Shown here in pieces: positions 5,149 to 10,517 of a stretch of DNA of 43,255 bases. The notes under the pieces are model-generated. The model was not told the origin of the DNA. It made no database searches and saw only the letters and a list, made by a program, of their open reading frames with translations. The translations under genes were made by a program, and so were the position numbers. The DNA lies in the NCBI GenBank assembly GCA_019634045.1, contig JAHQWA010000289.1, positions 1 through 43,255 of the forward strand, given 5' to 3'. Every line of letters starts with the position of its first letter. The stretch's first letter is position 1. Source of the stretch: Saprospiraceae bacterium. Its GTDB lineage: Bacteria > Bacteroidota > Bacteroidia > Chitinophagales > Saprospiraceae.

Positions 5149-5323
5149 TACCTTGCTTTCCAATTTTCGCTTGACTTTGAATTTTAAATAGAAAGCTGCG
5201 CACAATTTCTGCTATTATTGCGTTGTAATAGCAATGTAAAAGCGAATGTTCTCGTGCTTTGCAACTATCATGCGGTTCTTCTTTCCTAGGATAGATAGAA
5301 CTCCAAAACAAAACCCTCACAAC

Positions 5324-6007
5324 ATGCGAAAAGTTTTCATGCTAGGTATTTGTCTATTCTTTGCCTTTTCTGCCTTCGCCCAGTTTGGCGTCAAAGGCAG
5401 TTATCACTTTAGCGATGCCGCCGACTGGCAAGTACCCACCAACAATGGAAGTAATTCCGAAAGTCTAATTGGTAATGGCTGGTCTGTAGGCGTAGATTAC
5501 TGGTTCCGCCTAAAGAACTATCGAATGGAATTTTTGCCAGAGTTGAACTTCAGTCAACTGAATCAGCAAGTAGATAATGCGGACTGGGCGAATCAGGTTT
5601 CCTTCTCCAGCTTCTTTTTCAACACCAATTTCTATTTATTTGACTTTAAGGGCGATTGCGACTGTCCGACTTTCTCCAAACAGGGGCCGAGCCTGGAAAA
5701 GGGCTTCTTTCTGCAAGTGTCTCCCGGATTGACTTTTGCACAGAGCGAAATCGAATTGAGCGGTAATACCTTGAAAGCCGATGATCTGGCCTTTAGTATT
5801 GGAATAGGAGCCGGATTTGATCTGGGCGTATCGGACTTGGTAACGGTGAGCCCAATGGTTGGTTTCCGTTATTTCCCTAGTATTTCCTGGGATTCTTTAG
5901 GGGAGAGCCTGGAGGACGAAGTACCCCAATTAGAGGTGGACGATACCCGTTCTAGTCTTACTCAATTTTACGCAGGTCTCCGAGTTGGATTCAGGTTGGA
6001 CTACTAG
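5324..6007 (+). CDS. Secreted/outer-membrane beta-barrel protein (OMP_b-brl-like)
   Basis: I chose the ATG at 5324 because it begins directly with a signal peptide (MRKVFMLGICLFFAFSAFAQ, cleavage near residue 20); the frame is open 26 codons further upstream but that extension would bury the signal. The mature part of about 207 residues has alternating polar and aromatic residues typical of beta strands, for example WSVGVDYWFRLKNYRMEFLPE and a C-terminal strand YAGLRVGFRLDY ending in an aromatic residue. This resembles the eight-stranded outer-membrane barrel proteins common in Bacteroidota. A CDCP motif near residue 112 is unusual. No specific function can be assigned. Confidence 0.75.
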   Translation: MRKVFMLGICLFFAFSAFAQFGVKGSYHFSDAADWQVPTNNGSNSESLIGNGWSVGVDYWFRLKNYRMEFLPELNFSQLNQQVDNADWANQVSFSSFFFNTNFYLFDFKGDCDCPTFSKQGPSLEKGFFLQVSPGLTFAQSEIELSGNTLKADDLAFSIGIGAGFDLGVSDLVTVSPMVGFRYFPSISWDSLGESLEDEVPQLEVDDTRSSLTQFYAGLRVGFRLDY

Positions 6008-6045: not shown

Positions 6046-6077
6046 TTTGTTTTTTCAATTTTTTTGATCCACATTTG
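6046..6077 (+). promoter_or_regulatory. Candidate promoter of the ilv leader and operon
   Basis: A TTTG at 6046-6049 and a CACATTTG at 6070-6077 are separated by 20 bp, the preferred spacing of the Bacteroidota primary sigma factor promoter (TTTG, 19-21 bp, TAnnTTTG). The -7 box has one mismatch (C for the first T). Transcription would begin about 15 nt before the leader peptide ATG at 6099. Confidence 0.45.
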
Positions 6078-6098
6078 TTGCATCAAGCGAAGCAAATT

Positions 6099-6185
6099 AT
6101 GAGATCTTCTGTGATCAATATTATCGTTGTCATTATTACTGTGGTCGTCATTATTGGACAGACACCCCAGGAAGGATGGTATTGA
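6099..6185 (+). CDS. ilvL: ilv operon leader peptide (28 aa), Ile/Val-rich
   Basis: This short ORF encodes 28 residues, 13 of which are Ile or Val, all within residues 5-19 (VINIIVVIITVVVII), with no leucine. It is followed by an intrinsic terminator at 6208-6243 and then ilvD, which is the layout of a classic branched-chain amino-acid attenuator. When Ile- or Val-tRNA is scarce the ribosome should stall within the run of control codons (6111-6155). The last codons (residues 23-28, 6165-6182) carry the antiterminator segment, so the peptide's GQTPQEGWY tail may be constrained by RNA pairing rather than protein function. The gene symbol follows enterobacterial usage. It is too short for most gene finders, and no Shine-Dalgarno sequence is needed in this phylum. 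Confidence 0.85.
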   Translation: MRSSVINIIVVIITVVVIIGQTPQEGWY

Positions 6186-6229
6186 TTTGATCGATCAGAG
6201 ATTTCACAAAAAAGCCGTTCTTCCTAGGG
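6165..6229 (+). promoter_or_regulatory. Antiterminator pairing of the ilv attenuator
   Basis: Bases 6165-6180 (CCCCAGGAAGGATGGT) can pair with 6214-6229 (GCCGTTCTTCCTAGGG) over 16 positions: 15 pairs, three of them G-U, and one C-A mismatch at 6168/6226. The partner region covers the GC part of the terminator's 5' arm (6214-6221) and its loop, so this structure and the terminator exclude each other. A ribosome parked at the stop codon 6183-6185 would cover 6165-6180 and favour termination; one stalled on the Ile/Val codons would free it. Confidence 0.8.
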
Positions 6230-6247
6230 AGAACGGCTTTTTTGTTT
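6208..6247 (+). terminator. Attenuator terminator upstream of ilvD
   Basis: A perfect 14-bp inverted repeat pairs 6208-6221 with 6230-6243; the core is GCCGTTCT/AGAACGGC, and the loop is TCCTAGGG. The 3' arm ends in six T residues, followed by GTTT. It lies 22 nt after the leader stop codon and 213 nt before ilvD, so it can stop transcription before the operon. Confidence 0.88.
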
Positions 6248-6369
6248 GGGGTGCTGCGCCAGAATATTAGCTCAAAGTTGTCTAAAAGTCGGCTTTAATT
6301 CGTAAGACAATTAAACCTTTTTGCTTGTTTTTCAATTAATTACAAAAGGCATATAGGTACTTAGGCTCG

Positions 6370-6377
6370 TAAGTTTG
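6370..6377 (+). promoter_or_regulatory. Possible internal -7 box (TAAGTTTG) between attenuator and ilvD
   Basis: An exact TAnnTTTG match 79 bp before the ilvD ATG. No TTTG or TTG sits at the right distance upstream. If active, it would give some ilvDBN transcription that bypasses the attenuator. Confidence 0.25.
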
Positions 6378-6456
6378 GCATTTTTTCGTTCGATTTCTCA
6401 ATTGCACCCTTTTACCTTTATATGAACAACTCATTATACCGAAAATAAAACGCAAC

Positions 6457-8136
6457 ATGAAGCAGCTGAACAAATACAGCAGACACCTAACGCAAGATGA
6501 GACACAACCGGCCGCACAGGCCATGCTTTACGGTATTGGACTAACGGAAGAGGACATGGAAAAAGCACAGGTTGGTATCGTCAGTACCGGCTGGGAAGGT
6601 AATACTTGTAACATGCACCTGAATGGACTAGCAGAACAAGTAAAGGTTGGTGTATGGGATAGTGACCTGGTGGGATTGATCTTTCATACGATTGGAGTCA
6701 GTGATGGTATGTCTATGGGAACAACGGGCATGCGATTTTCGTTGCCCTCTCGCGACCTGATCGCTGATTCAATTGAAACGGTAGTTTCTGCGCAATGGTA
6801 CGATGCAGTTGTTCCAGTAGTAGGCTGCGATAAGAATATGCCAGGGGCCATGATCGCTTTAGGTCGGCTGAACCGGCCTTCTATCCTCTTATATGGGGGC
6901 ACCATTAGCCCCGGCTGCCATGCCGATCGGAAGTTGGACATCGTTTCTGCTTTTGAGGCCTTGGGTGAAAAAAATACCGGCCAGCTAAGCCCTGAGGATT
7001 TCAAGGAAGTCGTCAAAAAAGCCTGCCCAGGACCAGGAGCTTGTGGGGGTATGTATACCGCTAACACGATGGCCTCCGCTATCGAAGCTTTGGGTATGAG
7101 CCTGCCGTACAATTCATCTATCCCAGCCAATCATGAAGATAAAAAGATGGATTGTGAGCGAATTGGCAAAGCCATTCGCAAGGTGTTGGAATTGGATTTG
7201 AAGCCTCGAGATATCATGACTCGTAAGTCCTTTGAAAATGCCATTACGCTGATTACTGTCCTTGGGGGGTCTACGAATGCGGTGCTACACTTACTAGCCA
7301 TTGCGCGTTCTGTAGAGGTAGAATTGACGATTGATGATTTCCAGCAGATCAGCGATAAAACGCCCTTCTTGGCCGACCTGAAGCCAAGTGGCAAATATGT
7401 TATGGAGGATCTTTTCCAAGTAGGAGGTGTCCCAGCAGTGATGAAGTTTTTGCTAGAGGAAGGTTACTTGCACGGAGATTGCATGACGGTTACCGGCAAA
7501 ACACTTGCTGAAAACCTAGCAGAGGTAGAGCCCTTGAAAGAAGGGCAGCAAATCATCCGGTCGTTTGGCGAACCCATTAAAGACTCTGGGCACTTACAGA
7601 TCCTTTATGGAAACCTAGCAGAAGAAGGTTCCGTAGCAAAGATTACCGGTAAGGAAGGCGAAGTATTTAGTGGCCCAGCCCATGTATTTGATAGTGAAGC
7701 CGATCTGAATGCCGCTTTGCAAAAAAGAGAAATTCTAGCTGGAGAAGTAGTAGTTATCAGATATTGTGGTCCCAAATGGGCCCCAGGAATGCCTGAAATG
7801 CTGAAACCCACTTCTTCCATTATGGGACAGGGTTTAGGAAAAAAGGTGGCCCTGATTACAGATGGTCGATTCTCTGGCGGAACGCATGGATTTGTAGTAG
7901 GTCATATCACTCCAGAAGCTCAACAGGGCGGATTGATCGGCCTCCTCCAAAATGGAGATCTGATCACGATTGACGCGATTAACAATAAACTTGAAGTGGA
8001 TCTCTCAGCAGCAGAGATTCAGGCGAGAAAAGCCAAGTGGCAAACGCCTGCACCTAGGGCTACCACTGGGCTATTAAGAAAATATGCGCTTACCGTCTCT
8101 TCAGCCAGCGAAGGTTGTGTGACGGATGCCATGTAA
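6457..8136 (+). CDS. ilvD: Dihydroxy-acid dehydratase
   Basis: IlvD removes water from 2,3-dihydroxy-isovalerate or -methylvalerate to give the keto acids of valine and isoleucine. The 559-residue length is typical of the bacterial enzyme. Cysteines that bind the Fe-S cluster are seen at Cys51 (GNTCN), Cys124 in GCDKNMPG and Cys196 in [15 protein letters not shown]; Asp83 and Lys126 (carbamylated in known structures) are the expected magnesium ligands. The C-terminal [20 protein letters not shown] block is also present. The ATG at 6457 gives a natural start 20 bp after the nearest stop-rich region. It is the first structural gene of ilvD-ilvB-ilvN and sits behind the leader attenuator. Confidence 0.97.
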
Positions 8137-8185: not shown

Positions 8186-9931
8186 ATGAAAAGCAATACT
8201 CAGACAGCAACAGCAACCAGCGTAGCTCCTCAGCAAAAAGAAGTGATTTCAGGGGCCGAAGCCATACTTCGGTGTTTACTTGAAGAACAGGTCGATACTA
8301 TTTTTGGGTATCCCGGTGGTGCCATCATGCCTGTTTATGATTCTCTGTACTACTATCAAGATCGGCTACGGCACATTCTCCCTCGTCACGAGCAAGGCGC
8401 TATTCACGCCGCGCAAGGATATGCCCGAGTCACTCGAAAGATTGGAGTCTGTATGGCTACCTCTGGACCAGGGGCTACCAACCTGATCACCGGCCTGGGA
8501 GATGCCATCTTAGATTCCACTCCTTTGATCTGCATCACTGGACAAGTATTTAGCCATCTATTGGGTAGTGATGCTTTCCAGGAAACGGATGTGATTAACT
8601 GTACCATGCCCGTTACCAAGTGGAATTTTCAAATCACCAAAGCGAGTGACATTCCTGAGGTATTTGCCAAGGCATTTTACATCGCCAACTCCGGTCGACC
8701 TGGTCCCGTAGTAATCGATGTCACGAAAAATGCTCAGCTAGAAGAGGTCGAGTTTCATTATACACCAAGACCGACGATCCGCAGTTATCAGCCATTGCCC
8801 AAAGCAGATCCAGAATCCTTGCGGCAAGCAGCTGAATTGATTAACAAAGCGAAACGTCCTCTAATTCTTGCTGGACATGGAATACAGATAGCACACGCTC
8901 AGGAAGTGTTTAAGGACTTTGTAGAGAAGACGGGTATTCCACTTGCCTGTACTATACACGGTTTGTCTTCGATATCATCCGAGCATCCGCTACACATCGG
9001 GATGCTGGGGATGCATGGCAACTACGGTCCCAATATGATGCAAAACGAATGCGATGTCTTGATAGCCATCGGAATGCGTTTTGATGATCGGGTGACGGGC
9101 CGCTTGGATGCTTATGCTAAGCAAGCTAAAGTGATCCATATTGAAATTGATCGTTCGGAAATCAATAAGAATGTGCACGCCCATGTTCCCATCGTTTCTG
9201 ATGCTAAGCTTGCATTAGAAGCCTTATTTCCGATGGTGGAGGAAAAGTCTTACCCAGACTGGCTAGCCAAGGCTGCCGAGTATTATCGGATTGAAAAGGA
9301 AAAAGTAATCGACAAGGCCGTTGGAGCCTCCGAAGATGGATATATCAAGATGGGAATGGCCGTTAAAGAAGTCTCTGACCAAACAGACGGCTTAGCAGTA
9401 GTAGCAACGGATGTAGGTCAGCATCAAATGATTGCGGCTCGCTATTTCTCCTATCGTGCGACCAATCAGTGGGTCTCTTCAGGAGGAGCAGGAACCATGG
9501 GTTTTGGCTTACCAGCTGCCTTTGGCGCCAAATTGGCCCAGCCTGAACGAGAAGTAGTCGCATTTATTGGAGACGGAGGGTTTCAGATGACGATCCAGGA
9601 ATTGGGCATGTGTGCGCAATGGAATGTAGGCGTCAAAATCGTTCTGCTCGACAATAATTACCTCGGCATGGTCCGGCAATGGCAGCAACTTTTCTTCGAA
9701 AGAAGGTATTCATCCGTTGAATTGGTCAATCCTGATTTCATCAAAATCGCGGAAGGATTTGGAGTCCCCGGTAGGAAAGTCTCTAAACCAGAAGAACTAA
9801 AAGAGGCCGTAGCGGAGATGATTGCCCATGATGGACCCTTCTTGTTGCATGTAGAGGTAGAGAAGGAAGAAAACGTCTTCCCGATGGTAGCCAGCGGAAA
9901 GGCTGTTGACGAGATCGTTTTGGAACCTTAA
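8186..9931 (+). CDS. ilvB: Acetolactate synthase large (catalytic) subunit
   Basis: This is the thiamine-diphosphate enzyme that joins pyruvate with pyruvate or 2-ketobutyrate, the first common step of valine, leucine and isoleucine synthesis. The 581-residue product has the three-domain pattern of the family: the N-terminal PYR domain with [12 protein letters not shown] (41-52) and catalytic Glu69 ([16 protein letters not shown]), a middle FAD-type domain with [13 protein letters not shown], and a C-terminal PP domain with the ThDP motif beginning at GDGG (462-465) and ending near [13 protein letters not shown]. The first 20 residues are a poorly conserved Thr/Ala/Gln-rich extension. The gap to ilvD is 49 bp and to ilvN 28 bp, consistent with one operon. 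Confidence 0.97.
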
Positions 9932-9959: not shown

Positions 9960-10517
9960 ATGGAATCAAAACCTAAATATACCATTACGGTTTTCACAGA
10001 GAACCAGACGGGTTTGTTGGCAAGAGTAGTATCTGTATTTACTCGACGCCATATCAATATTGTTAGCCTAACTACATCTGAATCTTCTATTCCTGGCATA
10101 CACCGATTCACTATCGTTGTGAGTCTAGAACCAAGGGCTATTGAAAAGCTCATGGGACAACTAGAAAAGCAGATTGATGTAATCAAAGCTTTCTACTACG
10201 AGGAAGATGAGATCGTTTATCAGGAAATAGCCCTGTATAAGGTACCGACCCATATATTTTCGGGCAATAGCAGCGTCGAACGGCTCATTCGCCAATACAA
10301 CGCTCGAATTCTACAGATAGAAAAAGAATACATTGTAATCGAAAAAACGGGGCATGAGCATGAAACCACTGCCCTACTGGAAGAACTTAAGGAAATAGGC
10401 ATCTACGAGTTCGTCCGTTCTGGTCGAGTGGCGATTGTAAAGCCTATGGAAAGACTGAATAAATACCTGCAGAGCCTAGAGCAAGAAATCGGCAAAGAAG
10501 TCGAGGAAGGCGTTTAA
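9960..10517 (+). CDS. ilvN: Acetolactate synthase small (regulatory) subunit
   Basis: The 185-residue product belongs to the IlvN/IlvH family, which stimulates the large subunit and makes it sensitive to feedback by valine. An ACT domain covers about residues 5-80 (TVFTENQTGLLARVVSVFTRRHINIVSLTTS), followed by the longer C-terminal domain seen in IlvH-type subunits (to about residue 170). It lies just after ilvB and is the last gene before a strong terminator. No ilvC, leuA or leuB follows here, although these often sit next in Bacteroidota. Confidence 0.96.
   Translation: MESKPKYTITVFTENQTGLLARVVSVFTRRHINIVSLTTSESSIPGIHRFTIVVSLEPRAIEKLMGQLEKQIDVIKAFYYEEDEIVYQEIALYKVPTHIFSGNSSVERLIRQYNARILQIEKEYIVIEKTGHEHETTALLEELKEIGIYEFVRSGRVAIVKPMERLNKYLQSLEQEIGKEVEEGV

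Follow-up and report, generated by a model that had tools for sequence, protein, structure and literature searches.

The ilvDBN operon in the stretch of DNA analyzed here (the window; 43,255 nt, contig JAHQWA010000289.1 of a Saprospiraceae bacterium) is very probably governed in vivo by a ribosome-mediated transcription attenuator. Ahead of ilvD, a short ORF dense in Ile and Val codons is followed by an intrinsic terminator, part of which can pair instead with the end of that ORF. The two structures exclude each other, the alternative pairing comes and goes in computed folding with the position of the ribosome, and the arrangement is conserved, with covariation, ahead of ilvD in relatives.

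Leader, terminator, and antiterminator in the window

The initial annotation had described the leader as a 28-codon ORF with 13 Ile/Val codons among 15 consecutive ones, and its coordinates turned out to be right when read from the window sequence (Table 1). The last Ile codon is codon 19. The ORF ahead of ilvDBN is short and translatable and carries a run of codons for the amino acids that the operon produces, and no other Ile/Val-rich short ORF in the 43-kb window was coupled to a terminator; the number of such ORFs in the reverse-strand and shuffled controls of the window was zero. All three downstream genes exceeded the curated NCBIfam cut-offs, which bears out their earlier naming as ilvDBN. 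Upstream of the leader, the predicted promoter P1 would start transcription at about position 6083 and is conserved in four relatives (L003, L004, L067, and L068; relatives' loci are designated by L numbers); a −7 consensus, TAnnTTTG, has been reported for a Bacteroidota sigma-A (PMC9723704).

Table 1. Coordinates of the attenuator, predicted promoters, and structural genes in the window
Feature	Position	Strand	Basis
Predicted promoter P1, Bacteroidota type: −33 TTTG (6046-6049), 20-nt spacer, −7 box CACATTTG (6070-6077)	6046-6077	+	sequence, conservation
Leader ORF, MRSSVINIIVVIITVVVIIGQTPQEGWY, 28 codons (ATG 6099, TGA 6183-6185)	6099-6185	+	sequence; counterparts in 45/129 ilvD upstream regions
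Regulatory run, 13 Ile/Val of 15 codons, no Leu	6111-6155	+	sequence
Segment 2, antiterminator 5′ strand CCCCAGGAAGGATGGT, within the last leader codons	6165-6180	+	pairing, 15/16
Segment 3, antiterminator 3′ strand GCCGTTCTTCCTAGGG, GC part of terminator 5′ arm plus loop	6214-6229	+	pairing, comparison
Intrinsic terminator: stem 6210-6223/6228-6241, loop 6224-6227, T run 6238-6243	6206-6247	+	folding
TCGTAAG box 1 of predicted P2 region	6300-6306	+	conserved, 67-69 nt before box 2
TCGTAAG box 2	6367-6373	+	exactly 46 nt before −7 box of predicted P2
−7 box TACCTTTA of predicted P2, between attenuator and ilvD	6413-6420	+	conservation; predicted only
ilvD, dihydroxy-acid dehydratase	6457-8136	+	TIGR00110, 723.8 bits (cut-off 618)
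ilvB, acetolactate synthase large subunit	8186-9931	+	TIGR00118, 717 bits (cut-off 538)
ilvN, acetolactate synthase small subunit	9960-10517	+	TIGR00119, 114.5 bits (cut-off 56.9)

The intrinsic terminator lies between the leader ORF and the first structural gene, and its hairpin reached −26.3 kcal/mol (z −8.1), a value equaled by none of 200 shuffles. Its stem had been called a perfect one of 14 bp; the 14 bp do exist, but one of the pairs is G-U. The loop reads CTAG, and A-U pairs extend the stem to 18 bp. The pairing proposed earlier between 6165-6180 and 6214-6229 could be read directly from the sequence at 15 of 16 positions. It overlaps the GC 5′ arm and the loop of the terminator, with which it is mutually exclusive, and it is conserved by covariation (see below). 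The region 6163-6231 folded at z −4.2 and the whole of 6080-6260 at z −5.65. A 1:2 protector hairpin appeared in the minimum-energy fold, yet 6110-6200 folded no better than shuffles (z −0.55). The Rfam leader families (Thr_leader, Phe_leader, and others) gave no match at the gathering score in this leader, the best subthreshold model being Thr_leader with 31.8 bits against a gathering score of 55, and the T-box and riboswitch models of Rfam likewise gave no match in it.

To assess the influence of the ribosome, the RNA between about 6083 and 6231, which still lacks most of the 3′ arm of the terminator, was folded as the nascent transcript. A ribosome footprint extending from 18 nt upstream to 12 nt downstream of the first A-site base was placed at each codon in turn. 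With the A site on codons 2 to 19, which include every Ile/Val codon, the computed probability of the antiterminator was 0.99 to 1.00; at codon 20 it was down to 0.47, and it was 0.00 for codon 21 and all later codons up to the stop. The switch point sits at the end of the Ile/Val run. The fold with 6165-6180 blocked by the ribosome, which the initial annotation had suggested as a check, abolished the antiterminator; in these computations, the antiterminator is left free by a stalled ribosome and is covered by one near the stop codon. At equilibrium, the full-length RNA preferred the terminator at every ribosome position, so the decision must be kinetic, as in classical attenuators.

We infer that the leader is translated, that ribosome and polymerase are coupled there, and that the operon responds in vivo in the following way. 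RNA polymerase from P1 would make the leader RNA, followed by a ribosome that translates the leader. A shortage of charged tRNA-Ile or tRNA-Val would stall the ribosome within the run at 6111-6155; as its leading edge would reach about 12 nt past the A-site codon, 6165-6180 would be free to pair with 6214-6229, the terminator could not form, and ilvDBN would be transcribed. When both charged tRNAs are plentiful, the ribosome would proceed towards the stop codon and cover 6165-6180, the terminator would form, and transcription would end near 6245.

The unit among relatives of IlvD

The 129 distinct upstream regions compared here belong to IlvD relatives found in 100 genomes of the same family and in named genome contigs. 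The best named matches were uncultured Lewinella and Saprospiraceae, and the window was placed in that group. Units composed of an Ile/Val-rich ORF and a terminator, 51 altogether, were found in 45 of the 129 regions, while no leader was detected in more than half of them. On the forward strand, 51 of 52 Ile/Val-rich ORFs were followed by a terminator, the corresponding numbers being 0 of 6 on the reverse strand and 0 of 4 to 5 in shuffled sequence. This coupling bears on a simpler reading of the hairpin as the terminator of the upstream gene (5246-6007), with the ORF incidental. The gene does share the leader's strand, with 200 nt between its end and the hairpin, but besides the coupling, the units persist behind a different upstream gene, e.g., leuB, and a predicted promoter lies between the upstream gene and the leader, so that we consider this reading highly improbable.

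The gene leuB is found upstream on the same strand at eight loci (L027, L039, L042, L043, L048, L049, L059, and L100), where the attenuator appears to separate the leu from the ilv genes. A conserved small ORF, mostly with an SII end (e.g., MTTDLNPEVAYSCSQFGDIVESLILGEELNLKSLKESSYSII), lies between leuB and ilvD in L027, L034, L043, L052, L054, and L061. An Ile-rich leader with a terminator also precedes ilvD in L136 (Balneolaceae bacterium MES10), the record being labeled Balneolaceae, outside Bacteroidota proper.

The leader sequences vary freely across relatives while their Ile/Val content stays. When the run of the window was compared with those of its two closest relatives, all the nonsynonymous changes inside it were exchanges between Ile and Val (codons 6, 10, 11, and 12 for L003 and codons 10, 11, and 12 for L067). 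The runs of the 51 leaders contain a total of 314 Ile, 177 Val, and 43 Leu codons, i.e., 491 for Ile plus Val versus 43 for Leu. These numbers are hard to reconcile with the ORF encoding a functional small hydrophobic membrane peptide (e.g., a toxin-like one) that has its own terminator and is unrelated to ilv control. The run VINIIVVIITVVVII could span a membrane, but membrane helices are normally Leu-rich, the sequence changes freely around a constant Ile/Val content, the unit precedes ilvD in 45 loci, and one would not expect a peptide gene to be accompanied by a covarying antiterminator whose distance from the run is nearly fixed; a membrane peptide is therefore extremely unlikely.

Leu-containing, Leu/Val-rich leaders precede ilvD in Neolewinella agarilytica and N. 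persica (L089 and L091) and at the Cytophagales-type loci L119, L135, L142, L143, and L144, which suggests that the sensed amino acid changed between lineages. The earlier expectation that a leader devoid of Leu codons responds to Ile and Val only fits the window leader, but it does not extend to Neolewinella and to some Cytophagales. We also considered the idea that Leu-containing leaders accompany linked leu genes. It found no support: leuB is the immediate upstream neighbor of leaders that are free of Leu or poor in it (L039, L043, L048, L049, and L100), and for the Leu-rich leader of Neolewinella L089, leuA is not near ilvD by coordinates.

The pairing of the leader tail with the arm of its own terminator had a mean of −14.4 kcal/mol, in comparison with −10.1 kcal/mol for permuted partners, and none of 20,000 permutations was as good, the set of 51 units including close relatives and thus not being fully independent. 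When each unit's own pairing was ranked individually against those with the other units, the result was weak (own best in 8 of 51) because the arms share a consensus, and the pooled permutation was used instead. With the terminator's first non-A base as the reference point, registration of all 51 units gave 0.81 paired versus 0.74 swapped and failed for many units. In the 26 units that registered without gaps, hand-chosen and hand-registered for clean pairing, 91% of the cells paired and 8 of the 11 antiterminator pairs had changed on both sides. The covariation in these hand-registered units was 0.429, versus 0.249 when shuffled and 0.08 to 0.22 when slid; as the hand-picking favors this result, the permutation test on all 51 units is the safer number.

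The folding with a ribosome was extended to 50 units of the family. The number of pairs expected between the terminator arm and the upstream RNA was 10.9 for a ribosome on Ile/Val codons and 5.0 for one at the stop, and the drop came 1 to 3 codons past the last Ile/Val codon. Clean switching was not universal, the value at the stop being less than half of that on the Ile/Val codons in 28 of the 50 units.

The distance from the last Ile/Val codon to the start of the antiterminator had a median of 12 nt and a standard deviation of 3.6, versus 9.3 relative to the stop codon; the antiterminator search began at the end of the run, and it is the clustering near 12 that is informative, not the positive sign. 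This near-constant gap matches the distance that a stalled ribosome would cover, as the mechanism predicts. The last leader codons contain the antiterminator strand in the window's group, where the conserved GWY ending is encoded by the RNA segment GGATGGTATTGA; in other relatives, the stop codon precedes the antiterminator strand.

The comparison of upstream regions that the initial annotation had called for revealed ORFs rich in Ile/Val codons, terminators, and an antiterminator that is conserved and covaries, and none of the comparative outcomes that it had set against its own reading. Its supposition that attenuation operates in this lineage of Bacteroidota gains support from the folding switch, the conservation, and the covariation.

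Predicted promoter P2, tandem units, and other operons

The conserved block at 6300-6420, located 3′ of the attenuator, looks like a regulated promoter (P2), and transcription from it would probably bypass the attenuator; if P2 is active, the attenuator governs P1-derived transcription only. The spacing between box 2 and the −7 box was 46 nt in 22 cases, and any other spacing occurred in at most 4. In the window, where the two boxes are 67 nt apart, a partly conserved CTGAT..TCA element is located midway between them. Predicted P2 was found in 26 of the 129 loci, 10 with an attenuator and 16 without a detected one, and 35 loci had an attenuator and lacked predicted P2.

The attenuator could be real but minor, with most ilvDBN transcription coming from P2 under the control of a DNA-binding regulator at the TCGTAA boxes. 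The retention of predicted P2, with the exact 46-nt spacing in nearly all of the 26 loci and at 16 of them without a detected attenuator, speaks for such an arrangement, as does the finding that the full operator pattern occurs in the window's genome only at ilvD and one other place. P2 is a predicted promoter only, however, and the Ile/Val content of the leader is kept even in species with P2, so the leader must matter under some condition. On balance, we regard a dominant P2 as unlikely, if well short of negligible, and favor the attenuator as a governing element.

At six loci (L024, L025, L030, L059, L060, and L127), two complete Ile/Val units were found in a row. The second ATG lies 7 to 33 nt past the first terminator, a gap that leaves no room for a separate promoter, and the tandem units therefore probably act in series on a single RNA. 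We tentatively propose, with doubt slightly outweighing conviction, that the control of ilvDBN in Saprospiria shifted repeatedly between a single attenuator, two attenuators in series, and a regulator-bound promoter with TCGTAA boxes, the window having both an attenuator and a promoter. If this is true, two ribosome-gated terminators in series would multiply their effects, making the response to charged tRNA sharper.

A five-His leader (MSFNRVHHHHHFSFAPTGKW) lies upstream of hisG in the same genome, with a terminator just ahead of hisG, and folding at successive ribosome positions gave 8 to 13 pairs when the ribosome was on the His codons, versus 1.5 with it near the stop. At this locus (L156; G000:C418, 8466-8689), a tRNA-Phe gene is followed 14 nt later by the His leader, the terminator, and hisG; the tRNA-Phe and the his leader may be cotranscribed. 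An attenuator was looked for and not found at leuA (leuACDB) and ilvC of the same genome, and trpE was not found in it with PF04715. The organism seems to use attenuation for more than one pathway.

Comparison with known attenuation systems

Ribosome-mediated attenuation is a classical, textbook mechanism, and it requires a ribosome that keeps pace with RNA polymerase. The leader attenuators of the enterobacterial ilvGMEDA and ilvBN operons have a short leader ORF rich in cognate codons and an antiterminator overlapping the 5′ arm of the terminator. The window locus shares with them the cognate-codon ORF, the antiterminator on the terminator 5′ arm, and a branched-chain amino acid operon located 3′. 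Unlike in the enterobacterial leaders, there are no Leu codons in the window leader, no Shine-Dalgarno sequence is expected in this phylum, the antiterminator strand is inside the last leader codons, and no Rfam family matches at the gathering score. Bacteroidota initiate translation without Shine-Dalgarno sequences and have their own promoter consensus, and clear, selected attenuation in them implies that transcription and translation are coupled at these leaders.

As late as 2010, leader-peptide systems were said to be shown only in Proteobacteria and Actinobacteria (PMC2965389). The transcriptome of Flavobacterium psychrophilum gave strong hints of leader-peptide attenuation upstream of operons for amino acid biosynthesis (PMC9723704), so its existence in Bacteroidota is not new. 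That case resembles ours in the phylum and in attenuation being inferred upstream of amino acid operons, but it concerns another class, and the passage in question gives neither gene names nor covariation (PMC9723704). Leader-peptide attenuation appears to have been barely documented in Bacteroidota before, and the comparative evidence for it at ilvDBN is very strong. The present set comprises about 50 natural variants, cultured Neolewinella strains among them, with a measurable rule, namely, 12 nt from the last control codon to the antiterminator. The comparative case, this design rule, the serial units, and the downstream predicted promoter are points for specialists to test.

The Corynebacterium ilvBNC attenuator and the ilvB-II motif are alike in that, in the passages describing them, a leader uORF and alternative hairpins control an acetolactate synthase operon (PMC10272879, PMC11857589); the window belongs to another phylum and has another gene order. 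The tandem attenuators of Salmonella mgtCBR, as described in the passage concerned, provide a parallel to the six relatives with two short ORFs in series in one leader (PMC3641672). Unlike mgtCBR, which has other signals and target genes, each of these relatives has a pair of complete Ile/Val units that share their specificity.
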